A stretch of 64,000 nucleotides of DNA, taken from NCBI RefSeq assembly GCF_025371035.1, contig NZ_JANZXB010000001.1:518800-582799 (forward strand). Reading direction: 5' to 3'. The DNA comes from Sphingomonas sp. LC-1. GTDB taxonomy: Bacteria; Pseudomonadota; Alphaproteobacteria; Sphingomonadales; Sphingomonadaceae. This document shows positions 9,392 to 56,616 of this stretch, piece by piece (the first letter of the stretch is position 1; each line of letters opens with the position of its first letter). The translations under genes and the position numbers were made by a program. The notes under the pieces were generated by a model. It was not told where the DNA came from. It saw only the letters and a program-made list of their open reading frames with translations, and searched no databases.

Positions 9392-9562
9392 AGATTGAAG
9401 GGGACGCGGGGTGGCGAGGAAGAGCCTGACGATAGGGGGGATTTTGCCCATCGGCTCGGCGCGCCCCACTCCCTTCGCCAAGCGCGATCGGCGCCCATCT
9501 TCCAAGGTCTTTGCCGCGTCGGACCGGCGCCCGCGAAGCCGCCAGCTTTCGGGGAAATCGTC

Positions 9563-16088: not shown

Positions 16089-18397
16089 TGTTCAGCCGCC
16101 GCTCGCTCCTCGCCGGGACCGCGCTCGCCGCGCTTCCCCTTCGCGGCGTCATGGCCAGCCTGCCCGCGCTGCCGACCCGGCCCAACCTGTTCGTCGGGAC
16201 GGGCGGCGATGGCCATACCTATCCCGGCGCGGTCCTGCCCTTCGGCATGGTGCAGTTGAGCCCCGATACCGATGTCGAGCGCTGGGACACCTGCTCGGGC
16301 TATCACCATGGCGACAGCTCGATCATGGGGTTCAGCCATACCCATTTGTCGGGCACGGGGATCGGCGACATGCTGGACGTGCTGGTCGTGCCGACGCGGG
16401 GGGAACTGAAACTGGTGCCGGGTCCGCTGTCCGACCCGGACGCGGGCTATCGCCAGCGTTACTCCGACGAGATGGCCGAGCCCGGCTATTACCGCGTCAA
16501 GCTGGAGTCCGGGGTGCTCGCCGAACTGACCGCGACGGAGCGGACCGGCTGGCATCGCTACACCTATCCCAAGGGGCCCGGCCATGTCCTGATCGACCTG
16601 TCGCATCTCGTCCTGGACAAGACCGACGAGAAGCCGCTGATCACCGATGCCGAGATCACCATCGAACCCGATGGCACGATCACCGGCACGCGCCGCGTGT
16701 TCCGCTGGGCCAAGGGGCGGCGCATCTTCTTTGCGATGCAATTGTCCAAGAAGCCGAGCAGGATCCAGCTTTACGGCGACGGCGATACGCCCGCCACGGG
16801 CACCGCCGTCAAGGGCAACCGCCTGAAGGCCGCGCTGCATTTCGACGAATTGGGCGATGCGCCGCTGCTGATCCGATGCGGCATTTCGGCGGTCGATGTG
16901 GCAGGAGCCAAGGCCAATCTGGCGACAGAGGCCTCGCATTGGGATTTCGGTCGCGTCCTGGAAACGGCGCAACGCCATTGGGCGACCGCGCTGGGCGGTG
17001 TCCGGGTCGAGGGCGGGACCGAGGATCAACGAACGATCCTGGCCTCCGCCAATTACCATACGCTGATCGCGCCGACGCTCTTTTCGGATGTGGACGGGCG
17101 CTATGTCGGGCTGGACGGACAGGTGCACAGGCTGCCCGCCGGGCAGTTCGCCTATAGCACCTTCTCCACCTGGGATACCTATCGCGCGCTGCATCCCTGG
17201 CTGATCCTGACCCAGCCCGAGCAGGCCAGGAAGCTGATCGAGGACGTGATCCGCCAGACCCAGCAAAGCGCCTATGGCCCGCCGGTCTGGACGCTCCAGG
17301 GCAAGGAGACGGGGATCATGATCGGCTGGCACGGTACGCCGATCATGGCCGAGGCGATGGTGAAAGGCATTCCGGCCGACTATGCCGCCGCCTGGCCCGG
17401 CATCGCCAAGCGCAGCTTCGACTTTTCCGCGCCCGATCTGGACAATAGCAAGGGCCGCGACCTGTATGACGCCAAGGGCTATGTCCCCGCCGACATCTGG
17501 TTCGAGAGCGTCAGCCGGACGCAGGAATATGCCTATGACGACTGGGCCGCGTCGCACATCGCGCGCAAGGCGGGGGCCACCGCGCAGGCCGACCGGTTGC
17601 TCAAGCGGTCGGGCAATTGGCGCAACGTCATCGACCCGACGATCGGCTTCGCCCGCCCGCGCTTCAACGACGGCAGCTGGTGGAAGGATTACGACCCCAT
17701 CCAGCTCGGCCATATGCCCAAGCCCTGGTCGCGCGACTATACCGAGGCCAATGGCTGGCAGGCGACGTTCCTCAACCAGCATGACGTCTATGGCCTGATC
17801 CGCCACATGGGCGGCAATGCGAAGTTCGAGGCCAAGCTCGACGGCCTGTTCAACGCGCCCTCGACCCTGCCCAAAAATGCGCCGCCAGACATTTCCGGAC
17901 TGGTCGGCCAATATGCGCATGGCAACGAACCGGACCAGCACGCGGCCTATCTCTATGCCTATGTCGGCGCGCCGTGGAAAACGCAGAGGATGGTCCGCCG
18001 CCTGCTGACCGAGATGTACAAGAACGCGCCCGATGGCATCATCGGCAATGACGATTGCGGCCAGATGAGCGCGTGGTTCCTCTTCTCCTCGCTCGGCTTC
18101 TACCCGGTCGATCCGGTCAGCGGCGCCTATGTCTTCGGCGGACCGCTGTTCGACCGGGCGCAGGTGGCGATGGGCGGGGGCAGGACGTTGACGGTCGAGG
18201 CGAAGGGCAATGGCCCGGACGCGCCTTATGTGCAGTCGGTGACATGGAATGGCCGCCCCTGGACCAAGAGCTGGATCGACCATGCCACCCTGTCCCGGGG
18301 CGGAACCCTGTCCTTCACCATGGGCGCGCAGCCGAACCGCGCCTTTGGCCGCGATCCGAAGGATCGCCCGCCTTCCTTCGACTACAAGCCCGCCTGA
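16085..18397 (+). CDS. GH92 alpha-1,2-mannosidase (Tat-exported)
   Basis: A 770-residue GH92 enzyme, calcium-dependent exo-alpha-mannosidases acting on high-mannose glycans. A Tat signal (SRRSLLAG) opens the protein. The N-terminal beta-sandwich includes NLFVGTGGDGHTYPGA and SGYHHGDSSIMGFSHTHLSG; the (alpha/alpha)6 barrel includes FSTWDTYRALHPW, GNEPDQHAAYLY and NDDCGQMSAWFLFSSLGFYP, which supplies the catalytic acid/base region. Length is normal. Start and stop overlap: ATGA with GH125 upstream, and 23 bp to the GH29 gene. Confidence 0.94.
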   Translation: MMFSRRSLLAGTALAALPLRGVMASLPALPTRPNLFVGTGGDGHTYPGAVLPFGMVQLSPDTDVERWDTCSGYHHGDSSIMGFSHTHLSGTGIGDMLDVLVVPTRGELKLVPGPLSDPDAGYRQRYSDEMAEPGYYRVKLESGVLAELTATERTGWHRYTYPKGPGHVLIDLSHLVLDKTDEKPLITDAEITIEPDGTITGTRRVFRWAKGRRIFFAMQLSKKPSRIQLYGDGDTPATGTAVKGNRLKAALHFDELGDAPLLIRCGISAVDVAGAKANLATEASHWDFGRVLETAQRHWATALGGVRVEGGTEDQRTILASANYHTLIAPTLFSDVDGRYVGLDGQVHRLPAGQFAYSTFSTWDTYRALHPWLILTQPEQARKLIEDVIRQTQQSAYGPPVWTLQGKETGIMIGWHGTPIMAEAMVKGIPADYAAAWPGIAKRSFDFSAPDLDNSKGRDLYDAKGYVPADIWFESVSRTQEYAYDDWAASHIARKAGATAQADRLLKRSGNWRNVIDPTIGFARPRFNDGSWWKDYDPIQLGHMPKPWSRDYTEANGWQATFLNQHDVYGLIRHMGGNAKFEAKLDGLFNAPSTLPKNAPPDISGLVGQYAHGNEPDQHAAYLYAYVGAPWKTQRMVRRLLTEMYKNAPDGIIGNDDCGQMSAWFLFSSLGFYPVDPVSGAYVFGGPLFDRAQVAMGGGRTLTVEAKGNGPDAPYVQSVTWNGRPWTKSWIDHATLSRGGTLSFTMGAQPNRAFGRDPKDRPPSFDYKPA

Positions 18398-18420
18398 CCT
18401 TTCCCGGAGCCGCATTGAAG

Positions 18421-20331
18421 ATGATCGATTTCTCCCGCCGCGCCGTCCTCGCCTCCGGGCTGGTCGCGTCCGCCACGCCCGCCATGGCGAAAGCCGGACC
18501 GGGTGCACCCGCCCCCTATGGCGCCATCCCCTCGGCGCGGCAGTGGCGTTGGCATCAGCGCGAGCAATATGCGTTCATCCACTTCGCCATGAACACCTTC
18601 ACCGACAAGGAATGGGGTTATGGCGACGAAGACCCCAAGACGTTCAATCCCAGTGATTTCAGCGCGGACCAGATCGTCGGAGCGGCCAAGGCAGGCAATT
18701 TGAGGGGCATCATCCTGACGGCGAAGCACCATGACGGCTTCTGCCTGTGGCCGACCCGGCTGACGGAGCATTGCATCCGCAACTCGCCGTACAAGGACGG
18801 AAAGGGCGATATCGTCCGCGAGATGTCGGACGCCTGCAAGCGCGCCGGGCTCGCCTTCGGCATCTATCTGTCGCCCTGGGACCGCAATCGGGCCGATTAT
18901 GGCCGCCCGTCTTATGTGGAATATTTCCGCAAACAGGTGGTCGAACTCTGCACCGGTTATGGCGAGCTGTTCGAATTCTGGTTCGACGGCGCCAATGGCG
19001 GCGATGGCTATTATGGTGGTGCGCGCGAGACGCGGCAGATCGACGCGCCCAAATATTACAACTGGCCATCGATCATCGCGCTGGTCCATCAATATCAGCC
19101 CATGGCGTGCACCTTCGATCCGCTGGGTGCCGATATTCGCTGGGTCGGCAATGAGGACGGCATCGCGGGCGATCCCTGCTGGCCGACCATGCCGAACCAC
19201 CCTTATGTCCAGTCGGAAGGCAATTCGGGCGTGCGCGGCGGCGCGCTGTGGTGGCCCGCCGAGACCAACACGTCGATCCGGCCCGGCTGGTTCTATCACG
19301 CCGACGAGGATTCTAAGGTCCGGACGCCTGAGAATCTCATCGGCTATTTCGACACCTCGGTCGCGCGCGGCACCAATATGAACCTGAACCTGCCGCCCGA
19401 CCGGCGCGGCCGTATTCCCGATCAGGACGTGAAGATTCTGAAGAGCTTTGGCGATGCGATCCGCGCCAGCTTCGCGACCGACCTGGCGCAAGGCGCGGTG
19501 GCGAGCGCCAGCCATGTGCGCGGCAAGGGCTATGAAGCGACCAAGGTCCTCGACGGCAACCGCGACACCTATTGGTCGGCCCCCGATGGCGTGACGACGC
19601 CCAGCCTGACGCTCGACCTGCCGCCAGGGCGCCGCTTCGACCTGATCCGCATCCGCGAATATCTGCCGCTCGGCGTGCGCGTCACGCGCTTCGCGGTGGA
19701 TGCCGAGGTGAACGGCCAGTGGCAGCAGCTTGCCGAGCATGAGTGCATCAGCGCGCAGCGGATCATCCGCCTGCCCGCCCCCGTCACCGCGCGCCGCGTC
19801 CGCCTGCGCATCGTCGAGGCGCCCGTCTGTCCGGCGATCAGCGAGGTCTCGCTGTTCCAAAGCGTCGCGCCGGTGCCCGTCCCCGCGATCGTCTCGAGCG
19901 ACCCGACCGTGCTCGATACCAAGGGCTGGACCATCGTCTCGGCCAGTGCGCCGGGCGCGGAAAAGCTCCTCGACAATGACGCCAAGACCATCTGGACGCA
20001 GCCTGCGCCGACGCCGGGCAAGCCCGCCAGCGTCACGGTCGATATGGGTCAGGTCCGCGATGTCGCGGGCTTCAGCCTGACCCCCTCGCGCCAGGTCATG
20101 GTCGATGCCGCCCCGCCACGCGGCTATGTCGCGGAGACGAGCGTCGACGGGAAGAGCTGGACCCCGGCGGGTTCGGGCGAATTCTCCAACATCGCCTATG
20201 CGCTCTCGACCCAGCGCCTGCCCTTCACCAGCGTCCGACCGGTCCGCTATCTGCGGCTGACCTTCGCCGAAATGTCCAAGCCGGCCGAAAAGCTGGCGAT
20301 CGCCGGGATCGGCGGCTTCACCAAGCGGTAA
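18421..20331 (+). CDS. GH29 alpha-L-fucosidase with discoidin-like domains (Tat-exported)
   Basis: A 636-residue fucosidase. The Tat signal SRRAVLASG is followed by the GH29 barrel with HFAMNTFTDKEWG, LTAKHHDGFCLWPT and the nucleophile in FEFWFDGANGG (Asp189). Two F5/8-type (discoidin) carbohydrate-binding modules follow, at about residues 360-460 and 500-630. It would remove fucose from N-glycans so that the mannosidases and GlcNAc-releasing enzymes can proceed. ATG 18421 is chosen because it starts the Tat signal; a longer frame would run back through the GH92 gene. Confidence 0.92.
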   Translation: MIDFSRRAVLASGLVASATPAMAKAGPGAPAPYGAIPSARQWRWHQREQYAFIHFAMNTFTDKEWGYGDEDPKTFNPSDFSADQIVGAAKAGNLRGIILTAKHHDGFCLWPTRLTEHCIRNSPYKDGKGDIVREMSDACKRAGLAFGIYLSPWDRNRADYGRPSYVEYFRKQVVELCTGYGELFEFWFDGANGGDGYYGGARETRQIDAPKYYNWPSIIALVHQYQPMACTFDPLGADIRWVGNEDGIAGDPCWPTMPNHPYVQSEGNSGVRGGALWWPAETNTSIRPGWFYHADEDSKVRTPENLIGYFDTSVARGTNMNLNLPPDRRGRIPDQDVKILKSFGDAIRASFATDLAQGAVASASHVRGKGYEATKVLDGNRDTYWSAPDGVTTPSLTLDLPPGRRFDLIRIREYLPLGVRVTRFAVDAEVNGQWQQLAEHECISAQRIIRLPAPVTARRVRLRIVEAPVCPAISEVSLFQSVAPVPVPAIVSSDPTVLDTKGWTIVSASAPGAEKLLDNDAKTIWTQPAPTPGKPASVTVDMGQVRDVAGFSLTPSRQVMVDAAPPRGYVAETSVDGKSWTPAGSGEFSNIAYALSTQRLPFTSVRPVRYLRLTFAEMSKPAEKLAIAGIGGFTKR

Positions 20332-20697
20332 ATCCACGCCGCTCATCATCCCATCCGCGAGGGCGGGGTGGCGAGCGGCACCATCCGGTCGGAGCCGCGT
20401 CGCAGCGGTTCGTCCACGACTGCCCCATATTATTCGCCGTTGTCATGACGCTACAGCGCGAGCCGGTCGCCCGGTTTGTGGAGCGCATCCCCCTTCGATG
20501 CCGGGGGGATCTGAAGGCATTCCCATATGACCGGCCCGCAAACGAACAGGGATACGTTGGGAAAGCGCGTACGATTGATAAAGATCAAGATTGGGATGGC
20601 CGGACCCGCCTTCCAGATGTCCTTTGATATTTCGCGCCAAGTTCCGGGAGCTAATCAATATTAACAACGTTGTCGCTCCATAACGAAAGGGGCGAGA
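20332..20697. other. Intergenic stretch with one hairpin
   Basis: About 366 bp between the fucosidase and the next cluster. ATCCCCC (20487-20493) pairs with GGGGGAT (20504-20510) around a 10-nt loop, without a T run; it may stabilise or end the glycosidase mRNA. No gene is recognisable. AAAGGGG at 20687-20693 is the ribosome-binding site of the next gene. Confidence 0.5.
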
Positions 20698-22737
20698 TTG
20701 TTCATCCTGCATTTGGCGCTTGGCGGCTGCCTGAAATCCCCGCCTGTCCATTATGGCATCACGGCCGACACGGGCGGACATATCGCCTATATCCTGGATG
20801 CAGCGCTCGCTCAGGTGGACAATATTGATGTTGATCAAGTTTCGATCGTCACCCGAATGTTTGCTGGCGATGGACTCGATCGCGAACATGGCCTGCCCAG
20901 TGAGCGCCTGTCGCCCAAGCTGACCATCGATCGGATCGCCACCGGCGATCATCGCTACCTGGAAAAGGAAGCGTTGGCGGACGACCTGTCCGCCTTTACC
21001 GAGGCGTTCTGCGCGCATCTGGAACGGCTGCCCCGGCTGCCAGATGTGATCCACGCGCATTTCTCGGACGCGGCTGCCGTGGCGGCCGAAGCACGGCGGC
21101 GTTTCGCCATTCCCTTCGTCTACACGCCCCACGCGCTGGGGATCGACAAGCGCAAGCATCAGGGTCATTGCCCCGCGCTGGATGGGCGGATCGCCGCCGA
21201 ACGCAGCGCCATCGCCGGGGCCGACGCGATCATCGTCTCGACCCGTGACGAAGCCGAGCGGCAGGTCCATGCCTATGCCGCCCCGGTCACGGGCCGCATT
21301 CACTGCATCCCGCCGGGGGTGCCCAGCCGCGATGCCAGCCCGATCAGCCGCCCCTCGCTGGCCGAGCGGCTCGACACGATGCTGCACGATCCGGCCAAGC
21401 CCATAATTCTGGCGATCGCGCGGCCGGTCGCAAAGAAGAATCTCGGGGGCCTCGCGCGCGCCTATGCCGCCTCGCCCGCGTTGCGCGAGGCCGCCAATCT
21501 CGTCATTCTGGCCGGGCAGCACGACGGCCCCGGATCGCCCGAAGAACGCACCGTCCTGGCCGAGCTTCAGGCGCTGGCGCAAAGCCCCGAGCTTCTGGGA
21601 CGCTTCGCCCTGCCGCCCGAACATGACGGTCATGACGTCGCGGCGCTATACGACCGCGCGGCACGCGGCGGCGTCTTCGTCAACGCGGCGCTTCACGAAC
21701 CATTTGGCCTGACCCTGATCGAAGCCGCAGCGGCCGGCGTGCCGGTCGTCGCGACCCGGCATGGCGGCCCGAGCGAGATCGTGGGGTCCCTAGACCACGG
21801 ACTGCTGATCGAGCCCACCGACGAACACGCCATTGCGCAGGCGTGCCTGACCATCCTGTCGGATCGCGAATGCCATGCCCGGATGAGCCAGGCCGGGCGT
21901 TCCGGTGCGGCGCGTTACGACTGGGGTCGCTATGCCACCGAGTCCATCGCGCTCTATACCCGGTTGCCGCGCGCGCCGGGCCTGTTGGCGAGCGACATCG
22001 ACCATACGCTGACCGGTTGCCCGGCGGGTGCGCATGGCTTTTCCGAGTGGCGACGCGCGAGCGGCCTGCCCTTCGTGGTGGCGACGGGACGGTCCTTCGC
22101 CATGGCCCGCGCGATCCTGTCGCAATGGGGCCTGCCCGAACCCGATGCCTTCATCACCGATGTCGGTACGCGGATCATGCTGAAGGGTCCGCGCGGCTGG
22201 AGCGAGTGTCCGCTCTTTTCCGCCCGGCTCGATCAGGGATGGGATCGCAAGGCGGTGGTCGCCGCGCTCAAGCCGTTGCGCTTGCGGCCACAGCCACGCG
22301 ATACCGCTGGTCCGCACAAGCTGAGCTTTTTCGGAACGGCGGAGGATGCCGGACGGGTTCGCGCCGCGTTGGCCGAACACGGTATCGCCGCCAAGACCGT
22401 CTTTTCGCATGGCCGGCTGATCGACGTGCTGGCCCCATTGGGGGGCAAGGCCGCGGCGGTCGCGGCCTATGCGCGGCGGTTGAACCTGCCGCTCGGCGCG
22501 TGCATCGCGGCGGGGGACAGTGGCAATGACGTCGACATGCTGGAGGCCTGCGGCCACGCTATCGTCGTCGGCAATGCCAGCGACGAGCTGGACGGACTGC
22601 CCCCGCGCGAAGGGCTGATGCGGGTGGCCGCTCATCACGCGCAGGGCGTGCTGGAAGGGTTGGAGCGGCTGGGTCTGGCCGATGCCAGGGCAGCCACCGG
22701 TACCAACCTCTCCCCGATACGGGCCAGCGCGGCATGA
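20698..22737 (+). CDS. Sucrose-phosphate synthase-like GT4 fused to a sucrose-phosphatase-like HAD domain
   Basis: A 679-residue bifunctional protein. Residues 1-430 are a GT-B transferase of the sucrose-phosphate/mannosylfructose-phosphate synthase group: YGITADTGGHIAYIL near the start, HAHFSDAAAVA, ARPVAKKNLGGLARAY, and HEPFGLTLIEAAAAGVPVVA with the EX7E glutamates. Residues 435-665 are a HAD phosphatase with SDIDHT, VVATGRS, ITDVGT and GDSGNDVDML. It could make a hexosyl-fructoside phosphate and dephosphorylate it in one step; sucrose and mannosylfructose are the obvious candidates. TTG start with AAAGGGG 7 bp upstream. It heads a six-gene overlapping cluster of sugar-transfer enzymes. Confidence 0.83.
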   Translation: MFILHLALGGCLKSPPVHYGITADTGGHIAYILDAALAQVDNIDVDQVSIVTRMFAGDGLDREHGLPSERLSPKLTIDRIATGDHRYLEKEALADDLSAFTEAFCAHLERLPRLPDVIHAHFSDAAAVAAEARRRFAIPFVYTPHALGIDKRKHQGHCPALDGRIAAERSAIAGADAIIVSTRDEAERQVHAYAAPVTGRIHCIPPGVPSRDASPISRPSLAERLDTMLHDPAKPIILAIARPVAKKNLGGLARAYAASPALREAANLVILAGQHDGPGSPEERTVLAELQALAQSPELLGRFALPPEHDGHDVAALYDRAARGGVFVNAALHEPFGLTLIEAAAAGVPVVATRHGGPSEIVGSLDHGLLIEPTDEHAIAQACLTILSDRECHARMSQAGRSGAARYDWGRYATESIALYTRLPRAPGLLASDIDHTLTGCPAGAHGFSEWRRASGLPFVVATGRSFAMARAILSQWGLPEPDAFITDVGTRIMLKGPRGWSECPLFSARLDQGWDRKAVVAALKPLRLRPQPRDTAGPHKLSFFGTAEDAGRVRAALAEHGIAAKTVFSHGRLIDVLAPLGGKAAAVAAYARRLNLPLGACIAAGDSGNDVDMLEACGHAIVVGNASDELDGLPPREGLMRVAAHHAQGVLEGLERLGLADARAATGTNLSPIRASAA

Positions 22738-23879
22738 CCCGACCCTTTGGCTATTTCGTCCATCATCAAGGGCGCGGTCATGCCGAACGCTGTGCCGCGA
22801 TCCTAAACGCGCTGCCGCCCGAACGGCCCGTGACGGTCTTTTGCGCACGCGACGATATTTTCCCGGCACTGCCGCCCCAGGCCGAGCTAATCGTCATCCC
22901 CTCGCTATTCGAGCCGACGGGGTTGGAGGCGCGGGGCATGGACGGGGTGCCGACCCCCGATACGCTGCACTGCGCACCGCTGGGGTGGCCGGGGATCCGG
23001 CATGCGATGGCGGTGATCGCGGGATGGTTCGACCGTGCCGACCCCGCGCTGATGATCTGCGACGTGTCGGCGGAGATCGCGCAGCTCGCGCGTATTTGTT
23101 CGGTGCCGCATGTGAAGGTGCTGCAACATGGCGACCGGAGCGATCCGGGCCACCGCGCCGCCTATGACGGAGCCGCCGGGCTGCTTGCGGCCTTTGACGA
23201 AGCGCTGGCCCAGCCCGAATGGGACGCCGCGATGCGCGCCAAGACCTGTTTCGCCGGTGGCCTGGGCGTCGATACCCGCGTGCCCGAACGCGAACTGGCG
23301 CGTCAGCGGATCGGCGTCGGTGCGGACGAAGAGGTGATATTGGTGCTGTCCGGCGGCGGCGGCGGCGGCTTTGCGCAGGCTCCCCTGGGCGTCGGCGCGC
23401 GCAGCCGCCCCGGTGCGCGCTGGATCACCATCGGCCCGGTCGTACGCGACTGGCATGCGACCGAGCCCGCCAATATCGAGCATCGCGGCTGGGTCGACAA
23501 TCCGGCGGATCATGTCGCCGCCGCCGATCTCGTCATCGCCTCGACCGGCAACACCACCTGCCAGCAGATCCTGGCCGCCGCCCGCCCCTGGCTCGCCATC
23601 CCCGAATGGCGCTATTTCGACGAACAGCATCGCAAGGCCGAAGCGCTGGCGGCAGCGGGGGTCGCATGCGTCCGGTCGCACCTGCCCTCTTCTGCGCAGA
23701 GCTGGTCCGCCGCTTTGGCCGAGACCCGCGCCGGACACCGCCCCGCCGCCCAGCGCGCGATGATCGCCGACACGCCCGCGCAAGACGCCGCCGATTGGCT
23801 GGAGGCGCTGGCCGTGCGGCTATGGCCCACCGAACTCGATCTTTCCCCCGCCACCAATCCCGCCGGAGCCCGTTCATGA
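22734..23879 (+). CDS. GT-B glycosyltransferase, MurG/GT28-like
   Basis: A 381-residue protein with a MurG-like layout. The N-terminal GYFVHHQGRGHAER resembles the HG-rich loop of GT28 enzymes; the C-terminal half has ILVLSGGGGGGFAQ and ADLVIASTGNTTCQQILAA with PWLAIPEWRYFDEQ, the donor-binding region. Donor and acceptor are unknown. It is coupled to the upstream fusion gene and the downstream GT2 by 4-bp ATGA overlaps, so it should work on the same product. Confidence 0.7.
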   Translation: MTRPFGYFVHHQGRGHAERCAAILNALPPERPVTVFCARDDIFPALPPQAELIVIPSLFEPTGLEARGMDGVPTPDTLHCAPLGWPGIRHAMAVIAGWFDRADPALMICDVSAEIAQLARICSVPHVKVLQHGDRSDPGHRAAYDGAAGLLAAFDEALAQPEWDAAMRAKTCFAGGLGVDTRVPERELARQRIGVGADEEVILVLSGGGGGGFAQAPLGVGARSRPGARWITIGPVVRDWHATEPANIEHRGWVDNPADHVAAADLVIASTGNTTCQQILAAARPWLAIPEWRYFDEQHRKAEALAAAGVACVRSHLPSSAQSWSAALAETRAGHRPAAQRAMIADTPAQDAADWLEALAVRLWPTELDLSPATNPAGARS

Positions 23880-24790
23880 TCTCGGTCGTCACTCTTGCCG
23901 GGGGACGCCCCGAACACCTGCGCAACGTCGTGCTGGGGCTCGGTCGTCAGACGCAACTGCCGACCGAATTGATCGTCGCGGTCATGCAGGACGACGCCTA
24001 TGACCTTCCCGCCGCCCCCTTCCCCATTCGCCAGATGCGGGTGTCGGGCCCCCGACTGCCGCTGGCGCAGGCGCGCAACGCGGCGGCACGCGCCGCGGTG
24101 GGGGACAAGCTGGTCTTCCTCGATATGGATTGCATCCCGACGCCCGGCCTAATCGCGGAATATGACCGCTATCTGGACGAGATGGACGGGCTGCTGATGG
24201 GCGAAGTCATGTATCTGCCAGGCGGCGCGACCCAAGGCGATTGGCAGTACGAGGACTTTGCCGCGCGCGCGGTCCGCCATTCCGACCGGCGCGGCCCCCC
24301 GCCCGAAGGGATTGAGCGGTGCGAGGATTATCGCTGCTTCTGGTCGCTCAATTTCGCGATGCGGCGCAACACCTTCCTGGCGACCGGCGGGTTCGACGAG
24401 CGCTATTCGGGCTATGGCGGCGAGGACACCGATTTCGGCAAGGTCGTGGACAAGGCTGGCGTGCCGATCGCCTGGATCAAGGGCGGCCTCGCCTATCACC
24501 AATACCATCCCCACCATATGCCGCCCGTCCACCATATCGACAGCGTGGTCCGCAATGCCGAGTTGTTCGAAAAGAAATGGGGATACCGGACCATGGGCCA
24601 TTGGCTGCACGCCTTTCGCCTGATGGGGCTGATCGACGACACGCCGGGCCGCCCGATCCGCATCCTGCGCCAGCCGGATGCCGACGACCTGACCCTGACC
24701 GGGCAACAGAGCCATCAGCCCTATGCCAACACCGCCAGCGTCATCCGCCTGCTGGAGGAACGCGCCGCCAGCGCTCAGGTCGCGGCATGA
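23876..24790 (+). CDS. GT2 glycosyltransferase, galactosyltransferase-like
   Basis: A 304-residue GT-A enzyme: SVVTLAGGRPEHLRNVVLGL at the start, LVFLDMDCIPTPGLI as the metal-binding DxD-type motif, and GGFDERYSGYGGEDTDFGK, the C-terminal Asp/Glu motif of galactosyltransferase-like GT2/GT7 proteins. No membrane segments, so cytoplasmic. ATG 23876 overlaps the previous stop; a longer open frame upstream lies within the MurG-like gene and is spurious. Confidence 0.8.
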   Translation: MISVVTLAGGRPEHLRNVVLGLGRQTQLPTELIVAVMQDDAYDLPAAPFPIRQMRVSGPRLPLAQARNAAARAAVGDKLVFLDMDCIPTPGLIAEYDRYLDEMDGLLMGEVMYLPGGATQGDWQYEDFAARAVRHSDRRGPPPEGIERCEDYRCFWSLNFAMRRNTFLATGGFDERYSGYGGEDTDFGKVVDKAGVPIAWIKGGLAYHQYHPHHMPPVHHIDSVVRNAELFEKKWGYRTMGHWLHAFRLMGLIDDTPGRPIRILRQPDADDLTLTGQQSHQPYANTASVIRLLEERAASAQVAA

Positions 24791-25863
24791 GGATCGCGCT
24801 GCTCGCGCATGTCCGCCAGCCGATCCGCCAGCCCTTTCTGGGCGGGATGGAGGCACATGGCTGGTATCTGGCCGAGGGGCTGGCGGCGCGCGGGCATGAA
24901 GTGGTGCTGTTCGCCAGTGGCGACAGCGACCCGCGCTTCGCCATCGATCCGGTCCTGCCGGAGCATTATGAAGCGGTCTTCCCCTGGGCCGAGCATCGCG
25001 GCAAGCCCGAGCTGATCGCGCATGTCGATCGCGGCTATGCCGATGCCTGCGACCGGATCGCGCGCGGCGGGTTCGACGTGGTGCATAACAACAGCCTGCA
25101 TCGCTTCCCCCTGGAGCCGCGCCGGACGGCGGTGACGCCGACCGTCACCTCGCTCCACGTCCCGCCCTATGATGCGCTTCACCATTTCGTCCGGGTCAGC
25201 CCGGCTCCGACCCACCGGCTGACCGTCACCTCGGCCAGCCAGTTGCGCGCCTGGTGGCCCGAGGACGCACCGCCGGAGGCATCGGTCCTGCACAATGCGA
25301 TCGACCCCGCCGCCTGGCCCTTCGTCCCCGTCGGGAATGGAGAGGCGGTGTGGTGCGGCCGGATCACCCCGAATAAGGGCCCGCATCTGGCGATCGACGC
25401 CGCGCGGATCGCGGGCCTGCCGCTGACCCTGTTCGGCGCGGTCGAGGACCCGGATTATTGGGCGGCGGAGGTCGAGCCCCGGCTGGGCGGCGCGATCCGC
25501 TATGGCGGGCATCTGGACGGTGCCGGGCTGGCGGCGGAACTGGGCCGAGCCTCCGTCTTCGTCTTCACGCCCTGCTGGGACGAGCCGTTCGGCCTGGTCG
25601 CGATCGAGGCGATGGCATGCGGCCTGCCCGTTGCGGCGTTCGACCAGGGCGCGGCGCGCGAAGTGGTCGGCGACGCCGGATGCATCGCACTGGCGGGCGA
25701 TGCGGCGGCGCTGGCACAGGCCATCCTCACCGCGACCGCCGTTCCGCGCCGCACCGCCCGCCGCCGGGTGGAGATGCATTTCGCCCGCGACCTGTGGCTC
25801 GATCGGTGCGAGGCGCTTTACGCCAGCGTCCGCAACGCTGCGCCGAGCGCTATCGCCGCATGA
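24787..25863 (+). CDS. GT4 glycosyltransferase
   Basis: A 358-residue GT-B enzyme. It shows IRQPFLGGMEAHGWYLAEGL near the N-terminus, LHVPPYDALHHF in the acceptor half, WCGRITPNKGPHLAIDAA in the linker/donor half, and DEPFGLVAIEAMACGLPVAA as the EX7E motif. No signal or membrane segment. ATG 24787 overlaps the preceding stop, and its own stop overlaps the pyruvyltransferase start, so all genes here are translationally coupled. Substrates unknown. Confidence 0.83.
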   Translation: MRIALLAHVRQPIRQPFLGGMEAHGWYLAEGLAARGHEVVLFASGDSDPRFAIDPVLPEHYEAVFPWAEHRGKPELIAHVDRGYADACDRIARGGFDVVHNNSLHRFPLEPRRTAVTPTVTSLHVPPYDALHHFVRVSPAPTHRLTVTSASQLRAWWPEDAPPEASVLHNAIDPAAWPFVPVGNGEAVWCGRITPNKGPHLAIDAARIAGLPLTLFGAVEDPDYWAAEVEPRLGGAIRYGGHLDGAGLAAELGRASVFVFTPCWDEPFGLVAIEAMACGLPVAAFDQGAAREVVGDAGCIALAGDAAALAQAILTATAVPRRTARRRVEMHFARDLWLDRCEALYASVRNAAPSAIAA

Positions 25864-26771
25864 CCACCGACGTCATCGGACGCCAACGGACCCGATTGCT
25901 TGACCTGTATCGCCGGCATGTCCGCCCCGGCGAACCCTATGCCTTGGTCGATTTCCCCGATCACCCCAATGTCGGCGACAGCGCGATCTGGCTGGGCGAG
26001 GTGACCTGCCTGCATGACATCGGTACCGGCGATCCAGCCTATGTCTGTCGGTGGGACGATTTCGATGAGGACGCGTTACGCCGCGCCTGCCCCACCGGGC
26101 CGATCATGATCCATGGCGGCGGCAATCTGGGCGACATCTGGCCGCATCACCAGCATTTTCGCGAAACGATCCTGACCCGTTTCCGCGACCGCCGGGTCAT
26201 CCAGCTTCCCCAATCGATCCATTTCCGCGATCCTGGCCAGCGCGACCGTTTCGCGCGCGTGGCAGGCGGGCATCCCGACTTCCACCTTTATGTCCGCGAC
26301 ACGGCAAGCGTCGCCTTGGCGGAGCGTCATTTCGATTGCCCGGTGCAGCTCGCTCCCGACTCTGCCTTCGGGTTGGGCGCGTTGGTGCGGCCCGTCGATC
26401 CGGATTGTCGCCACCTGATGCTGTTGCGGTCCGATGCGGAACGGGTCGAGCGGGACGATGGGCCGCTGGCCGCGCTGGATGGAAGTGTCCTGCTCGATTG
26501 GCTGGACGAGCCGCCCGTTCTCTTAGCCGATCCGCTGGAGCGGGCGCGCATCCGGGTCGAGCGCGGCCTGCGCCTGTTGTCACGGGGCGAGAGGGTGGTG
26601 ACCGATCGGCTGCATGGTCATATCCTTTCGCTGCTGCTCGGCATTCCGCATGTCGTGATGGACAATGACTATGGAAAGGTCAGTGCCTATATCGCTACCT
26701 GGACGAGCGACAGCCCGCTCGTCCGCCAAGCCCAGGGCCCGCAGGAGGCGGCGGAGATGGTGGGGCGATGA
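25860..26771 (+). CDS. Polysaccharide pyruvyltransferase family protein
   Basis: A 303-residue protein of the polysaccharide pyruvyltransferase family, which transfers a ketal pyruvate from phosphoenolpyruvate to a sugar. Visible motifs: DHPNVGDSAIWLGE, MIHGGGNLGDIWPHH, RVVTDRLHGHILSLLLG and PHVVMDNDYGKVS. Family members decorate exopolysaccharides or cell-wall glycans. In this cluster it implies an acidic, pyruvylated sugar product. Some family members act as ordinary glycosyltransferases, so the reaction is inferred. Overlaps both neighbours by 4 bp. Confidence 0.82.
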   Translation: MTTDVIGRQRTRLLDLYRRHVRPGEPYALVDFPDHPNVGDSAIWLGEVTCLHDIGTGDPAYVCRWDDFDEDALRRACPTGPIMIHGGGNLGDIWPHHQHFRETILTRFRDRRVIQLPQSIHFRDPGQRDRFARVAGGHPDFHLYVRDTASVALAERHFDCPVQLAPDSAFGLGALVRPVDPDCRHLMLLRSDAERVERDDGPLAALDGSVLLDWLDEPPVLLADPLERARIRVERGLRLLSRGERVVTDRLHGHILSLLLGIPHVVMDNDYGKVSAYIATWTSDSPLVRQAQGPQEAAEMVGR

Positions 26772-27685
26772 TCGACCTCAGCCTGTTGATCTGCACGCGC
26801 AATCGCCGCGACAGCCTGTCCGCGACGCTTGCCTCGATCGTCACGGCGGCGAGCCATGGCGGAGCGGAACGGCTGGAATTGATCGTCGTCGACAACGGAT
26901 CATCCGACGGGACGCCCGCGATGGTCCGGCAATGGGCGACCGAGCGCAGCTTCACCGTGCGCCTCTTGTCGGAGCCGCGCCCTGGCCTGTCGCGCGCGCG
27001 GAACATGGCGCTGGCAGCAGCGCGCGGCCGGATCATCGCGATGACCGATGACGACTGCGTCCTGCACCGCGATTACTTTGCCCGACTGGCTCAGGCCTTT
27101 GCGACGATCCCGGCCCCGGTGGTCATTGGCGGGCGTATCCTGTTGGGCGATCCGGCGGACCTGCCCGTCACGGTCAAGCTCGAGGATCACCCGATGATGG
27201 CCGATCCGCAGGGCTTTCCCGGTGGTTTCGTCATGGGGGCGAATCTGGCATTCACTGCCGATGTGCGAGGTCGGGTCGGGCGGTTCGACGAACGTTTCGG
27301 AGCGGGTGCGCCGTTTCGGGCGGCTGAGGATACCGATTTCCTGTTCCGCGCCCAGGCGGCGGGGATTCCCATCCGCTACGACCCCGGCTTCGTGGTCGAT
27401 CATCACCATGGCCGGCGCTGCCAAGAAGAGGCGGTCTCACTGCTGGCGGGATACGGGTTCGGCGACGGGGCGCTCTATGCCAAGCATCTGCTGACCGACC
27501 GGCGGATCGGACGATTGATCCGCGAGGATGTCCGAAACTTGCGGATGCGCTTTGTGGGGCCGGTCCCTGCCATTCGCCACTTCCATGCCTTTCGCCTGCG
27601 TCATGTGTTGGCGGGCTTTACTGCTTATGGCCGCGCCGCGATCACAGGTCGACGCCCATCCGCACCCCGACCGTCCTCGGCCTGA
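26768..27685 (+). CDS. GT2 glycosyltransferase
   Basis: A 305-residue GT-A enzyme with LLICTRNRRDSLSATL, VVDNGSSDGTPAM, IIAMTDDDCVLHRDYF as the DxD region, GANLAFTADV and AEDTDFLFRAQ. Last gene of the six-gene cluster. Its final 44 bp overlap the 3' end of the oppositely transcribed TonB receptor gene, leaving no room for a terminator between them. Donor and acceptor are unknown. Confidence 0.82.
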   Translation: MIDLSLLICTRNRRDSLSATLASIVTAASHGGAERLELIVVDNGSSDGTPAMVRQWATERSFTVRLLSEPRPGLSRARNMALAAARGRIIAMTDDDCVLHRDYFARLAQAFATIPAPVVIGGRILLGDPADLPVTVKLEDHPMMADPQGFPGGFVMGANLAFTADVRGRVGRFDERFGAGAPFRAAEDTDFLFRAQAAGIPIRYDPGFVVDHHHGRRCQEEAVSLLAGYGFGDGALYAKHLLTDRRIGRLIREDVRNLRMRFVGPVPAIRHFHAFRLRHVLAGFTAYGRAAITGRRPSAPRPSSA

Positions 27686-30026
27686 CCGGCGTCGAGACGG
27701 TGCGCCGCCCCAGCAGGAAGGGATTGCCGAAGGCGAAGCGATTGCCCCGTTCGTCCAGCACATTGTCGAGCGTCGCGACCAGCGTATAGCGGCCGGTGCG
27801 CGCGGTCAGCGCCAGATTGCCGATGCCATATCCGCCCTGGCGCACATCGAACATGTCGCCCACCCCCAATACCGAGGGACCGACGAATGCCGCCTCGGCC
27901 TTGGCGGACAGGGTCAGGTCCGGCGTGACGCGGAAATCGCGCACGACGCCCAGTCGCGCCGATATGCTCGGCGTTTCCGGCAAGCGGCGGTTGCGCGCCT
28001 TACTGAGCGCGGCGGTGGAGCCGGTCACTTCGTTGTCCGTCGCGAAGAAGGCGCCCGTCAGATGCCAGTCGGCATGCGGCACCCATTCCGCCCACCCCTC
28101 CAGCGCATCGACCCGCGCATCGCCGATATTGCTGGTCACCGGCTGTCCCGACCGGTTGATCAGGTCCGCCTGGATCGCGGTCCAGCGTGCATGGGACAGG
28201 CTGATCGACGCGGACAGGCCGGTCGCGCCGCGCCGCAAATGGCGGATGCCGAGTTCCACCATCTGGATCGAGTCCGACTCGAAATTGGCGACCCGCCCCA
28301 CCCCCGCCGCGACGGAAAGACCGCCGGTGCGAAACCCCGATTGATAGCGTCCGAACAGGCTCCAATGCGGGGCCAGCAGCCAGGACAGGCCGAAGGTCGG
28401 ATCGACCCGCGTGGTCGAGCGTCCCCGGACATAATGGGTGCTTCGCGGCTTGATCGAGGGTTCGCCATCGACCCGCGCCGCCGTCACGCGCCCGCCCAGC
28501 GTCAGCGACAGGCGATCGTTGAGCGGATGCGTCGCCTCGGCGAATATCGCGCCGCTCCGGGTGACGTTGGTCACTCCGATCACCGGCCGGACGCCTTGCT
28601 TGACGGTCAACGAGCGCGCCATCACCGACTGGTCGGAGACCAGATTGAGGCCCACCACCCATGACCCGCCCCCCGGCAATCGCCGCGACAGGCGGCTTTC
28701 ATGGGTGAACAGCGTCTTCGACCCATCCAGCTGATAGGATTGGTGCGCGCCCAGCACGCTGGCGTCGAACTGCTCGAACGAGGCACCCTGCACCAGTCCG
28801 GTCGCCGACACGAATTGCAGGCCATCCGCCCCGCTCTTCGACAGGAGCAGGCGGCCGAACGTCATGTCGCTCCAGGACGGCTGGGCGATTGCGGCTTGGC
28901 TGACCAGCACATCCTCGTTCATCACATATTGCGCATCGCGCGCGACGATCGACTGGGTGCCGCCCCCCAATTCGATCCGCCAGCCATCGCCCGGATCCCA
29001 TCGCAAGGTGCCGCGCGCGCCGCTGGTCAGCACCCGGTTGATATCGGTCGCACCCGTTCGGCCATTGTCGATATAGCCGCCCTCGACGGCATGATAGCCG
29101 ACCAGCCGGACGCCCAATGTCGAGGGCACGAGCATCACATTCGCCACCGCCGCGACATCGCCGCTCGGGGTTCCGTGGGTGGTCAGCTCACCACCCCATT
29201 CCAGCCGCCCGCTATCGCGATCCAGCATCACCGGGTTGGAGGTCAGCCGCACGATCCCCCCGATCGCGCCCGAGCCGTGCAATGCGCCCTGCGGCCCCTC
29301 CGCAATCTCGACCTCGCCAATGTCATAGAGCCGCAAACCCGGATCGGGCCCGGCAAAGGCGATCTGCACCTCGTCCAGATAGAGGCTGGCGGTCGACTCG
29401 GTCGCGCCGTTGAAGCTGCTGTCCGCGATGCCGCGAATGAACAGCTTGTTGCGCCCCGGCCCCAATGCGGTGGTCTGGAGAATGGGGGTCTGCGCCGCCA
29501 CATCGCTGAGATCGACCGAGCCCGTGGGAATGGTGACCCCGCGCCCGATCACGGAGACGCTGCCCGGATAGCGAGCGAGTTCGGTGCCCTGTTTGCTGGC
29601 GGTGACGATGATGTCCTGCGCATTGCCGGACGGCGGCGGCGGTGGCGCTGGTCCGCGCTTGGGCGAGGCCTGTCGGGGCATGCGCGGCGAACCGACGATG
29701 CGGAAACTTTCCCCATCGATCGCCACCGCCCTATATCCTGTCCCCCGCAGCAATTGCGACAAGGCGCGCGCGGGTGGGGATTGGGTCGCAAGCGCCGGAG
29801 TGCGCACGCGGCGCAAGCGATCGTCGGTCGTGACGATGGTAATCCCGCCCTGCCGCGCCAGTTCGCGCAAGGCGATATCGAGCGTCGCGGATGGTAGGAC
29901 GATGCGGCGCGGGACCGCTACGGGCCGCTCACGCGCCTGGACCGTAACGGGCAGGACGAGACAGAACGCGGCCCAAAGGCCGCGCTCAACGATCCCCGTC
30001 CGACGCCCGCAAAATCCAGTCCCCAC
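27642..30026 (-). CDS. TonB-dependent receptor with N-terminal STN signalling domain
   Basis: A 794-residue outer-membrane transducer. After a signal peptide (GLWAAFCLVLPVTVQA) an STN domain covers about residues 40-110 (ATLDIALRELARQGGI through RALSQLLRGTGY). A TonB box (DIIVTASKQGTE), plug (LFIRGIADSSFNGATES, EGPQGALHGSGAIGG) and beta-barrel follow. An STN domain lets substrate binding be signalled to the FecR/ECF pair encoded just upstream. The ligand is unknown. GTG start at 30026 overlaps fecR by 41 bp. The C-terminus VRMGVDL lacks the usual terminal aromatic residue, and the last 44 bp overlap the opposing GT2 gene. Confidence 0.86.
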   Translation of the reverse strand: MGTGFCGRRTGIVERGLWAAFCLVLPVTVQARERPVAVPRRIVLPSATLDIALRELARQGGITIVTTDDRLRRVRTPALATQSPPARALSQLLRGTGYRAVAIDGESFRIVGSPRMPRQASPKRGPAPPPPPSGNAQDIIVTASKQGTELARYPGSVSVIGRGVTIPTGSVDLSDVAAQTPILQTTALGPGRNKLFIRGIADSSFNGATESTASLYLDEVQIAFAGPDPGLRLYDIGEVEIAEGPQGALHGSGAIGGIVRLTSNPVMLDRDSGRLEWGGELTTHGTPSGDVAAVANVMLVPSTLGVRLVGYHAVEGGYIDNGRTGATDINRVLTSGARGTLRWDPGDGWRIELGGGTQSIVARDAQYVMNEDVLVSQAAIAQPSWSDMTFGRLLLSKSGADGLQFVSATGLVQGASFEQFDASVLGAHQSYQLDGSKTLFTHESRLSRRLPGGGSWVVGLNLVSDQSVMARSLTVKQGVRPVIGVTNVTRSGAIFAEATHPLNDRLSLTLGGRVTAARVDGEPSIKPRSTHYVRGRSTTRVDPTFGLSWLLAPHWSLFGRYQSGFRTGGLSVAAGVGRVANFESDSIQMVELGIRHLRRGATGLSASISLSHARWTAIQADLINRSGQPVTSNIGDARVDALEGWAEWVPHADWHLTGAFFATDNEVTGSTAALSKARNRRLPETPSISARLGVVRDFRVTPDLTLSAKAEAAFVGPSVLGVGDMFDVRQGGYGIGNLALTARTGRYTLVATLDNVLDERGNRFAFGNPFLLGRRTVSTPVRPRTVGVRMGVDL

Positions 30027-30915
30027 CGCTCTGGCGCCACTCCGCTCCGATCAGCCTCGCGAGACGGGGAACATCCTTGCCGGCATCGCCCGTCATCCGG
30101 ACGACACCCGTGACGTTGCGATCGACCAGTGGCCCCTCCACCGCGATGCGAACGCCATAGGCCGATTGCAATCGTGCAGCAATCGCCCCCACCGTCTCCC
30201 GGTCGAAATCGAGCAAGCCGCCGCGCCACCCCCCGATGGCGGACGGATCGATCGCAACGCGGCGCAGGCTATGGCGCGCTTCGTCCAGCCGAATTCCCTG
30301 CCCCGCCGTCAGTGCGACCTGCTGTCCCAGTGGAGCCAGCGACACCGATCCCTCGGCCACCGCGACGTCCAGCCGGGTTCCCGCACGGCGCACGTCGAAC
30401 ACCGTGCCCATGTCGCGGATCACGACCGCGCCCGAATGGAGTTCGAACGGCGCGGACGGGTCGTGCCGGACATGGAACAGCGCCTGCCCGGTCTCCAGCG
30501 TGGCGACGCGGGTGTCGTTACGATCGTAGCGGAGGCGCGATCCCCCGGCGAGCTCGATCCGGGTGCCGTCGTTGAGCGCGATCTGGCGGGTTTCCCCTGC
30601 CCGCGTCTGCTCGACCCGAATGTCCGGGCCGCGGTTCAACATCGTCGGGCCGGCGACGAGAGCGACAGCCGCCGCCACCCCGCCGAGCAGCCACCAGCGC
30701 CCCCAGCCGGCATTGTCATTGACTGCCTCAATCGGAGGAGCAGGTTCCACGGCCGCCGTCGGCGGGACCAGCAACGCATCGGCCATCGCGACCGCGTCAT
30801 AGGCGCGTGCGTTGGCCGGGCTTTCTTCCAGCCACGCGGCAAAGGCGTCCCATTCGGCCGCGCTCATGTCACGCTGCCGGATGTGCCAGTCGATCGCCTG
30901 TTCCTCACGCGTCAC
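29986..30915 (-). CDS. FecR-type anti-sigma factor
   Basis: A 309-residue inner-membrane regulator. The N-terminal DUF4880 region (AIDWHIRQRDMSAAEWDAF) is the cytoplasmic anti-sigma part; one membrane helix lies near residues 85-105 (WWLLGGVAAAVALVAG); the periplasmic FecR domain has LNDGTRIELAGGSRL and FELHSGAVVIRDMGTVFDV; a DUF4974-like end closes it. It should hold the ECF sigma factor until the receptor reports substrate. GTG 30915 shares bases with the sigma TGA and follows AAAGGAG; an in-frame extension to 31221 lies inside the sigma gene. Confidence 0.9.
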   Translation of the reverse strand: MTREEQAIDWHIRQRDMSAAEWDAFAAWLEESPANARAYDAVAMADALLVPPTAAVEPAPPIEAVNDNAGWGRWWLLGGVAAAVALVAGPTMLNRGPDIRVEQTRAGETRQIALNDGTRIELAGGSRLRYDRNDTRVATLETGQALFHVRHDPSAPFELHSGAVVIRDMGTVFDVRRAGTRLDVAVAEGSVSLAPLGQQVALTAGQGIRLDEARHSLRRVAIDPSAIGGWRGGLLDFDRETVGAIAARLQSAYGVRIAVEGPLVDRNVTGVVRMTGDAGKDVPRLARLIGAEWRQSGGDWILRASDGDR

Positions 30916-31463
30916 TCGTCCGCGCTCCTTTCGAGGACATGACGATGCGGTGACGTGCAATCCGCACCCTCCATCTCCCGATTTTCCTGCAAAAAATGAT
31001 AGGCCCGGCGCAACAGTTTCTCGACCGCGCTGACGGTGATGCCCATCCGGTCGGCGATCATCCGTTGCGGCTGATCCTCGAAGCGGAAAAGCGTAAAGGC
31101 CTGGCGCATCCGCTCGGGCATTTGCGCGATCCGCGCCTGGGCCTGTGCCAGTTCGCCCCGCGCCGCGACGATGCGTTCGGGGTCGGCATATTCCTCCGAT
31201 TGGGGCTGGACTTCTTCCCATGCCCCCTCGCGGGCACCGCGTCGGGCGGCGGCAATCCGGCGATCGGTGGCGAGGTTGGTCGCCATACGGCAGAAAAAGG
31301 GAATGGGCTGTTCGACATGCCCCCCCTCCAGCGCAGCGATGCGCAGCCAGAGATCCTGAAGCGCGTCCTCGGCATCCTCCACCGAGCCGAGCCGGGCCGC
31401 CAACAGGCGACGCAGCAGCGGTCGCGCCTCCATGAACTGGCCTTCCAGACCCGTATCGCCCAA
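30912..31463 (-). CDS. ECF sigma factor, FecI-like
   Basis: A 183-residue sigma-70 family factor with region 2 at about residues 15-75 (SVEDAEDALQDLWLRIA, ATNLATDRRIAAARR) and region 4 at about 115-160 (MRQAFTLFRFEDQPQRMIAD, GITVSAVEKLLRRAYHFL). It should direct transcription of the receptor operon when released by FecR. The frame starts with TTG 31463 after AGAGGG; ATG 31433 also has a fair site, so the true start is uncertain by ten residues. It follows the deacetylase gene after only 15 bp. Confidence 0.88.
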   Translation of the reverse strand: MGDTGLEGQFMEARPLLRRLLAARLGSVEDAEDALQDLWLRIAALEGGHVEQPIPFFCRMATNLATDRRIAAARRGAREGAWEEVQPQSEEYADPERIVAARGELAQAQARIAQMPERMRQAFTLFRFEDQPQRMIADRMGITVSAVEKLLRRAYHFLQENREMEGADCTSPHRHVLERSADE

Positions 31464-56208: not shown

Positions 56209-56616
56209 TCAGCGGATCCGCGTCCAGGTCTGCGTCTTGCACAGCGGCACAAAGACGCAGCCGCGCACCTTCAGCGTGTCGGCCCCTTCGGGTGTCAGCT
56301 TGGCGCTATAGGTCTTGCCATCCTCGGCATTATAGATGGTGCCACCACCCCACGCCGCGCCATCCTGCGAAAAGCCCTGCAGGATCAGCAGGTTCTTCAG
56401 TGGGCGATTGCGCAGCTTGGGATCGCGGTTGTTCTGGTCGGTCAGTGCAGGGTTGGTCCGCAGCTTTTCCGAAGTCAGGATGCGCCCGCACACCGAATTG
56501 CCGCATTTCTGGATTTCGACCACGCCACCGCGGGTCTGAGTCTGCCAGCGGCCGATCACCGCGTCCGCATTGGCGCCGGCGCCGGCCAATGCCATGGCTG
56601 TCAGGGTCAACAACAT
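56209..56616 (-). CDS. DUF2147 exported protein
   Basis: A 135-residue periplasmic protein of family DUF2147: signal peptide (LLTLTAMALAGAGANA), then VIGRWQTQTRGGVVEIQKCG, VCGRIL, LLILQGFSQDGAAWGGGTIY and YSAKLTPEGADTLKVRGC. The family is a small lipocalin-like barrel; function unknown. Start ATG 56616 follows GGAGAAGAGG; ATG 56634 is in frame but has a weaker site. It lies 43 bp before the fadL-type gene on the same strand. Confidence 0.85.
   Translation of the reverse strand: MLLTLTAMALAGAGANADAVIGRWQTQTRGGVVEIQKCGNSVCGRILTSEKLRTNPALTDQNNRDPKLRNRPLKNLLILQGFSQDGAAWGGGTIYNAEDGKTYSAKLTPEGADTLKVRGCVFVPLCKTQTWTRIR

Follow-up and report, generated by a model that had tools for sequence, protein, structure and literature searches.

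In the mannosylfructose pathway of Agrobacterium, the synthase MfpsA and the phosphatase MfppB are encoded by separate genes, and no further enzymes are known to be involved. Here we describe a six-gene operon, G1 to G6, of Sphingomonas sp. LC-1 (genome of 4.15 Mb in 48 contigs), which lies in a 64,000-nucleotide stretch of its DNA (the window; contig C1:518800–582799). Like MfpsA/MfppB, with which we compare it by description alone, the operon brings together a family 4 glycosyltransferase (GT4) synthase and a phosphatase resembling sucrose-phosphate phosphatase (SPP), a pair that makes a soluble fructoside in Agrobacterium; unlike them, it encodes both in a single gene and adds further enzymes. 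A second described system is the cyanobacterial sucrose/glucosylsucrose pathway. According to the accessible part of PMC9909042, TeSPS (tll1590) and TeGSS (tll1591) of T. elongatus and alr1000 of Nostoc PCC 7120 give soluble oligosaccharides under salt or heat stress, and TeGSS, whose gene adjoins that of sucrose-phosphate synthase (SPS), uses sucrose and UDP-glucose as substrates. The window operon resembles this pathway in encoding an SPS-type enzyme and a product-extending GT4 side by side. It differs in that the SPS-like and SPP-like domains are fused, an SPS glutamine is replaced by histidine, G4 lacks the TeGSS residue Tyr18, and clusters of this type encode another two glycosyltransferases and, in many cases, an enzyme that adds an acid group. 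The SPS-SPP fusions of Acidithiobacillus plasmid p6 and of Flavobacterium also carry GT4 and HAD phosphatase in one chain, but they keep the GGQ motif of SPS, stand without G2–G4 and branch separately in the G1 tree (support 100/99). We suggest, as a proposal with about equal chances of being right or wrong, that the operon may make a short, soluble, anionic oligosaccharide of the cytoplasm, built on a sucrose-type core and serving as a stress protectant.

The six genes, called as open reading frames (ORFs) on the window sequence, all lie on the plus strand (20698–27685). G1 (20698–22737, TTG start, 679 aa) encodes an SPS-like GT4 fused to an SPP-like HAD phosphatase, and G2 (22734–23879, 381 aa) a soluble GT-B glycosyltransferase of GT1/GT28-like type. 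G3 (23876–24790, 304 aa) is a GT2 enzyme with a galactosyltransferase-type C-terminal domain, conserved together with G1 and G2, and G4 (24787–25863, 358 aa) is a GT4 enzyme whose closest solved structures are glucosylsucrose synthase and tetrahydrobiopterin glucosyltransferase. They are followed by a pyruvyltransferase, G5 (25860–26771, 303 aa), and a second GT2 enzyme, G6 (26768–27685, 305 aa). All five junctions, read directly from the sequence, are 4-bp ATGA overlaps, as the initial annotation of this DNA had stated. The same holds, with ATGA or GTGA, for 75 of 80 scored junctions across 17 relatives (the window, loci L009–L022 and two plasmid loci). The five exceptions are found in L009, L018, L021 (twice) and L178, and that of L009 reflects start codon choice alone. 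Overlapping junctions are an operon mark and nothing beyond, and are not unusual as such. That the operon and its conserved module are real is practically certain. A domain search of G1–G6 gave no match to a flippase, polymerase, initiating transferase or transporter family, in agreement with the initial annotation, and no membrane-type hydrophobic stretch is present (highest 19-residue Kyte–Doolittle mean 1.68 or below). No description of the gene set was found among the papers listed in literature searches that left out most subscription journals, nor in the accessible part of PMC10040529; within that coverage, the earlier statement that no such pathway is known holds.

The fusion of G1 is clear from its matches to PF00534 (4.2e-25) and to the S6PP family PF05116 (7.5e-47) and from the intact HAD motifs in the alignment. 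These bear out the SPS-SPP-like fusion originally read in the DNA, and domain matches also support the enzyme classes given to the rest of the cluster. The phosphatase half scores 160.4 bits against PF05116 (cut-off 20.3), SPP being its best phosphatase match. No other gene of the genome comes near G1 in its score against the SPS model (315.5 bits; next 52.4). Its top PDB match is the SPS of H. orenii (5.4e-36) and its second MshA; a sucrose synthase and TeSPS are further solved relatives. Among the catalytic and phosphate-binding residues that the accessible part of PMC7264703 names for TeSPS, His158, Glu331, Glu339, Arg178 and Arg249 are kept in the alignment with G1, and Arg105 and Arg253 are replaced by lysine (by our own count, chain numbering equals the paper's numbering plus 3). 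A GGQ-type fusion of the same domain layout as G1 lies together with GH100, PfkB and MFS genes on a 10.8-kb Acidithiobacillus plasmid (L218:3029–6628), which counts in favor of our proposal.

G2 had been called MurG-like. It has a weak domain match (PF04101, E 1e-4), a sequence search of the PDB gave nothing up to E 1, and its AlphaFold2 model (mean predicted local distance difference test score 84.4) adopts a GT-B fold that is closest, by structure comparison, to the GT1 enzymes CalG1 and OleD, with MurG at rank 9. We correct the label accordingly, to GT-B. G3 matches PF02709/PF10111 and G4 matches PF13692/PF00534. The foremost support for a sucrose-type core comes from the G4 of a related locus, L113, which belongs to one early-branching group of clusters in the G1 tree and whose G4 is the one of five in the L111–L115 clade that was searched against the PDB. 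This protein matches glucosylsucrose synthase (7fg9) with 6e-59, scoring 203.7 bits where the next family reaches 86.9, and keeps Tyr18, Arg179 and Lys184 of TeGSS. The window G4 keeps Arg179 and Lys184.

Comparison across genomes defines which genes belong together. The initial annotation treated all six as a unit; its call for a conserved neighborhood is borne out, but the conserved unit is the four genes G1–G4 (fusion, GT-B, GT2, GT4). All four are present in 46 of 49 tabulated loci, or 46 of 50 if L116 is counted; these loci were picked by similarity to G1 or G2, so one core gene is given, and some are cut by contig ends. The full core is missing from three loci: L117, L118 and that of Paracoccus yeei (L177), where G1 is accompanied by a G4-like gene alone. 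A G1 search of named genomes yielded 70 loci. G2–G4 lie within 10 kb of G1 in 20 of 20 loci with at least 38% G1 identity (L009–L028), and Flavobacterium loci (G1 identity ~32%) have no G2–G4 match above 60 bits nearby. Searching 249 genomes of the family with G2 gave 35 matches, 31 of them strong (E ≤1e-40). Stretches of up to 20 kb were examined for 20 of the 31: 17 hold the full core, L117 and L118 hold G2–G4 without G1, and in L116, G2 stands without any other core gene over 18.5 kb. At the class level, 55 of 385 genomes have some G2 match and only four a strong one (the own genome, one of the same genus and two of other families), which makes the distribution of the core patchy. The core is found across four alphaproteobacterial orders and is a mobile module, not rare on plasmids. 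G2 matches 37 plasmid records, 28 with at least 80% coverage, and the core is carried on plasmids of Paracoccus, Sulfitobacter, Roseomonas, Pontibrevibacter, Jiella and Sphingomonas. Three clade-specific gene orders exist (that of the window, one with G4 inverted, and one with G4 and G2 inverted), and the set stays together in each.

Some loci depart from this pattern or carry other neighbors. In the Methylobacterium bullatum replicon (L176:10858–18100), G1 and G2 are surrounded by four genes, two of them G3-like and two G4-like. On the Paracoccus yeei plasmid (L177:12001–15159), G1 is without GGH and without several of the HAD motifs, and a G4-like gene is its sole partner; we read it as a possibly decaying or repurposed copy. 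A DNA polymerase III alpha-type gene stands near three Erythrobacteraceae-type loci (L101:12656–15988, and likewise in L100 and L106).

Unlike the core, the acid-adding genes vary between lineages. G5 scores 116 bits against PF04230 (cut-off 25.3) and is the sole match to this family in the genome. Its only PDB sequence match is Pvg1p of fission yeast (5ax7; 3.5e-36), whose DRLH motif it keeps. Pvg1p acts on N-glycan galactose, an acceptor that belongs to the yeast enzyme and is not assigned to G5. G6 matches PF00535, and the G5–G6 pair occurs in 15 of the 49 loci, every one of them Sphingomonas. A sulfotransferase is found in 17 of 49, namely 12 within L025–L027 and L099–L110 and five in Rhodobacterales, counting that of L180, which lies at the extreme edge of its stretch; the sulfotransferase of L025 belongs to PF13469. 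None of the 49 loci has both. Because related loci are not independent, these counts carry no significance test. Outside the 49, an annotated sulfotransferase lies near the core on plasmids of S. pontiacus and P. aestuarii. The acid tag is therefore replaceable, a pyruvyltransferase being exchanged for a sulfotransferase between lineages, and the pyruvate cap that had been proposed for the cluster stands for this lineage, where G5 very probably adds it, and not for the type as a whole. In the G1 tree, rooted by midpoint, the pyruvyl lineage joins Rhodobacterales and Roseomonas (100/99), separate from the Erythrobacteraceae type. Under this placement, no more than one exchange of sulfate for pyruvate, following transfer, need be assumed.

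A conserved Crp/Fnr-type box with the consensus TTGAT-N4-ATCAA lies upstream of the operon in Sphingomonas. The window copy, TTGATAAAGATCAA (20575..20588), is 123 bp upstream of the G1 start. Among ten close Sphingomonas, the box is perfect in seven and has one mismatch in three, with a variable N4 spacer; two of four more distant Sphingomonas/Novosphingobium loci have it with one mismatch. Allowing at most one mismatch, it precedes G1 in 12 of 14 chromosomal Sphingomonas/Novosphingobium loci versus 2 of 216 other ORFs (L012, with its incomplete upstream region, is left out of the box counts). The whole genome contains nine perfect sites and none of a control pattern. Two of the nine are at G1, the second being within its coding sequence (20825..20838), and one perfect site lies between a catalase gene (PF00199) and a second cluster described below. 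Catalase, Crp, ArsR-type, zinc alcohol dehydrogenase, DUF2147 and acyl-CoA dehydrogenase genes surround the seven sites other than those at G1. A classical FnrL low-oxygen regulon was considered and rejected, as no respiratory gene was recognized at the seven sites, where the remaining neighbors were judged by eye. Another perfect site of the window (56743–56756) lies 109 bp before a DUF2147 gene (56209–56634, minus strand) and directly after an acyl-CoA dehydrogenase gene.

Stress control of the operon is, in our view, somewhat more probable than its absence. Of the 49 loci, 21 have Crp/Fnr-type genes close to the core, and no G5 locus is among these 21. Two Crp homologues of the own genome are candidate regulators of the box: C1:508524 is nearest to those beside other clusters (44%) and has no box with 0–1 mismatch within its stretch L216, and C1:198406 (31%) has a perfect box upstream. 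A putative GGAGC-N16-CGTT element (20647..20671, plus strand), 51 bp upstream of G1, may be a promoter core; its spacing is identical in nine of ten close Sphingomonas, with a variant in L016. The EcfG promoter pattern GGAAC-N16/17-CGTT occurs 35 times genome-wide versus 76 for the reversed control. Since it is not enriched, no link to the general-stress sigma factor is claimed.

The second cluster (C44:156.8–160.1 kb, within L125, C44:152700–170000) encodes a GT2 enzyme (PF00535), a flavoprotein of the acyl-CoA-dehydrogenase fold, a PIG-L protein (PF02585) and a NodS-like methyltransferase, and catalase, Ku and LigD genes lie beside it. The flavoprotein has no Pfam match alone, and a profile of six sequences matches DszC-type monooxygenases best (1.8e-11). 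For the PIG-L protein, the best NCBIfam match is BshB1, far below the cut-off. The methyltransferase is below Pfam cut-offs in the own genome, and its homologue in L117 reaches 68 bits versus 24. Thirty Sphingomonas loci, from 40 genomes with a match, were examined upstream of the second cluster; 12 of them have the box with at most one mismatch, and in eight it is perfect. Core and second cluster tend to occur in the same genomes. With a single gene representing each cluster, and with significance values that shared ancestry inflates, 31 of 249 family genomes have G2, 30 the flavoprotein (E ≤1e-20, three weaker matches dropped) and 19 both, where 3.7 are expected (Fisher 3e-13). Leaving out six L117-like genomes with adjoining genes (two inspected, four assigned by coordinates), both occur in 13, of 25 with G2 and 24 with the flavoprotein (6e-9). 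Likewise, among 121 genomes of the genus, 47 have G2, 40 the second-cluster GT2 and 24 both (expected 15.5; 8e-4). The second cluster adjoins the core in Loktanella L024, Sphingomonadaceae L111 and Jiella L219, and is merged with G2–G4 in L117 and L118. The merged run of the latter two (L117:6101–12430; L118:6078–12383) reads G4, GT2, G2, flavoprotein, PIG-L, methyltransferase and G3, with no G1 match.

These data suggest the following pathway. The GT4 half of G1 would transfer the hexose of a sugar nucleotide to a sugar phosphate of fructose-6-phosphate type, and the HAD half would remove the phosphate; both activities are proposed because of the homology and the intact catalytic residues. 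G4, G2 and G3 would then add one sugar each. In this lineage, G6 would add the last sugar, on which G5 would place a pyruvate ketal. In other lineages, the charge would come from a sulfotransferase, and some lineages may leave it off. A Crp/Fnr-family regulator would act in Sphingomonas through TTGAT-N4-ATCAA, common to the operon and the catalase-linked second cluster. The product would be retained in the cell, because no export gene was found accompanying the module. Outside close Sphingomonas, the recurrent flanking families are Crp, sulfotransferase, YqcI/YcgG (PF08892), DUF1989 and YetF, along with two small ones without a family; no export gene is among the recurrent families, for which part of the flanking ORFs was scanned, or recurs in annotated plasmid copies. 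A soluble acid-tagged oligosaccharide, as first proposed, remains the simplest reading of a cluster that itself contains no export gene. A soluble intracellular oligosaccharide is the probable product, a sucrose-type core is an evenly balanced call, and the product may have a protective role.

Several observations weigh against this proposal. G1 falls well short of the NCBIfam cut-offs for SPS (TIGR02472, 313.6 bits versus 576) or for the SPP domain (TIGR02471, 111.6 bits versus 209.75). The window G4 scores nearly alike for tetrahydrobiopterin glucosyltransferase (106 bits) and glucosylsucrose synthase (109 bits), as does the G4 of L025, and the window protein has Leu at the catalytic Tyr18 and Arg at Trp10 of TeGSS. 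Neither acid-adding gene is nearby in 17 of 49 loci. The genome has four Poly_export (Wza-type) genes outside the cluster, so export in trans is possible. Upstream of G1, the box, allowing 0–1 mismatch, is absent in both Sphingomonas-type plasmid copies (L178, L179), and it is found in 0 of 6 Rhodobacterales, 0 of 5 L111-type, 1 of 15 Erythrobacteraceae-type (L109) and 1 of 2 Hyphomicrobiales loci. Finally, the glutamine of the SPS GGQ motif is His28 in the window G1. This position probably corresponds to the Gln that contacts fructose in TeSPS, as named in the accessible part of PMC7264703. GGH is present in 44 of 46 non-Flavobacterium G1 rows, the exceptions being P. yeei (GGA) and a Pirellulaceae row (GGQ). 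GGQ is found in 24 of 24 Flavobacteriaceae rows, in H. orenii SPS, Nostoc and Acidithiobacillus, and in that one Pirellulaceae row. The GGH enzymes and the P. yeei G1 form one group in the tree (100/99). With His in place of the SPS Gln, the acceptor may not be fructose-6-phosphate. The fructoside core of the initial annotation is plausible by SPS/SPP homology, with fructose-6-phosphate as a candidate acceptor.

The motif change is also a ground for a different core. G1 might use another phosphorylated polyol or acid, comparable to the inositol phosphate of MshA, and its product might be joined to those of the second cluster. MshA is the second-best PDB relative of G1, the PIG-L of the second cluster resembles BshB1 (below cut-off), and the two clusters co-occur and in three loci adjoin. 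Like the mycothiol and bacillithiol pathways (MshA, BshB), the system would then combine an SPS-related GT4 with a PIG-L deacetylase. Unlike them, it has a fused, SPP-like phosphatase, extra glycosyltransferases and an acid cap, and no thiol-pathway ligase was recognized near either cluster, though no search was aimed at one. Moreover, SPP is the best phosphatase match of G1, and the glucosylsucrose-synthase-like G4 of L113 points to sucrose. We consider this alternative rather unlikely.

It is unlikely, too, that the core enzymes build the sugar of a glycolipid or other membrane glycoside, such as a glycosphingolipid-like head group charged by pyruvate or sulfate. Sphingomonads make tetrasaccharide glycosphingolipids, small hydrophobic molecules, macrolides among them, are often the acceptors of GT-B enzymes with the G2 fold, and acid caps would fit head groups. 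However, it is hard to see what a fusion of glycosyltransferase and SPP-like phosphatase would do on a lipid acceptor, and the named recurrent families among the flanking ORFs scanned are not lipid genes. The core is also found on plasmids of Paracoccus and Sulfitobacter, which to our knowledge are not genera known for glycosphingolipids.

An exported polysaccharide, made or decorated by the cluster with flippase, polymerase and export genes elsewhere, is quite improbable. In its favor, exopolysaccharide loci commonly contain pyruvyltransferases and GT2/GT4 enzymes, the genome has Poly_export genes, one Sulfitobacter copy has dTDP-rhamnose genes nearby, and another has a GDP-mannose dehydratase gene at ~7 kb. 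Against it, G1–G6 include no initiating transferase, flippase/polymerase, ABC exporter or outer-membrane export gene of a Wzx/Wzy- or ABC-type exopolysaccharide locus, no export gene was found recurring beside the module, the only Poly_export gene on the contig is ~460 kb away with the other three on other contigs, so that no known exopolysaccharide pathway with distant transport genes emerges, the core moves on plasmids, and an SPS/SPP-type first step would yield a free disaccharide and not a lipid-linked repeat unit.

The surroundings of the core differ between lineages. Upstream of the operon in the window (9395–20331) are genes for GH2-type, GH3, GH125 mannosidase and GH92 mannosidase enzymes and an alpha-L-fucosidase with F5/8 type C domains, which look like an N-glycan utilization locus. 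A functional link to these glycan-degrading genes was rejected, as the synteny is confined to close Sphingomonas. A TonB-dependent receptor with an STN-like domain and a FecR regulator (27642–31221, minus strand) converge on the cluster and likewise recur in close Sphingomonas alone. YqcI/YcgG and DUF1989 genes, in some loci with a YetF-type gene, are near the core in several Sphingomonadales (L025, L099, L106, L112–L114). The Sulfitobacter dTDP-rhamnose genes, rfbCBDA, lie downstream of the core on a plasmid (L180:10552–13922) and are a possible hint at the donor sugar; they are not within the examined stretch of the other Sulfitobacter copy. Paracoccus aestuarii has treZ, treY and glgX beside the core, which counts in favor of the proposed stress protectant.

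Tentatively, the mobile core of four alphaproteobacterial orders may stand for a previously unknown family of cytoplasmic anionic oligosaccharide protectants, built by the GGH enzymes on a non-standard fructoside-type core. Such compounds would bear sulfate in Erythrobacteraceae and Rhodobacterales, whereas one Sphingomonas lineage would have exchanged it for a pyruvate ketal with one additional sugar. In Sphingomonas, they would share their regulation with a second pathway, where a NodS-like methyltransferase and a flavin monooxygenase of DszC-like type would act on a deacetylated amino sugar, and both together might yield a new class of stress metabolite. If this is true, anionic solutes would be an added family on the short list of compatible solutes, in bacteria of plants, soil and sea, and the Sphingomonas solute would be tied to a box common to the catalase-linked cluster. 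In addition, plasmid-borne islands annotated generically as HAD proteins and glycosyltransferases would gain a directly testable product.

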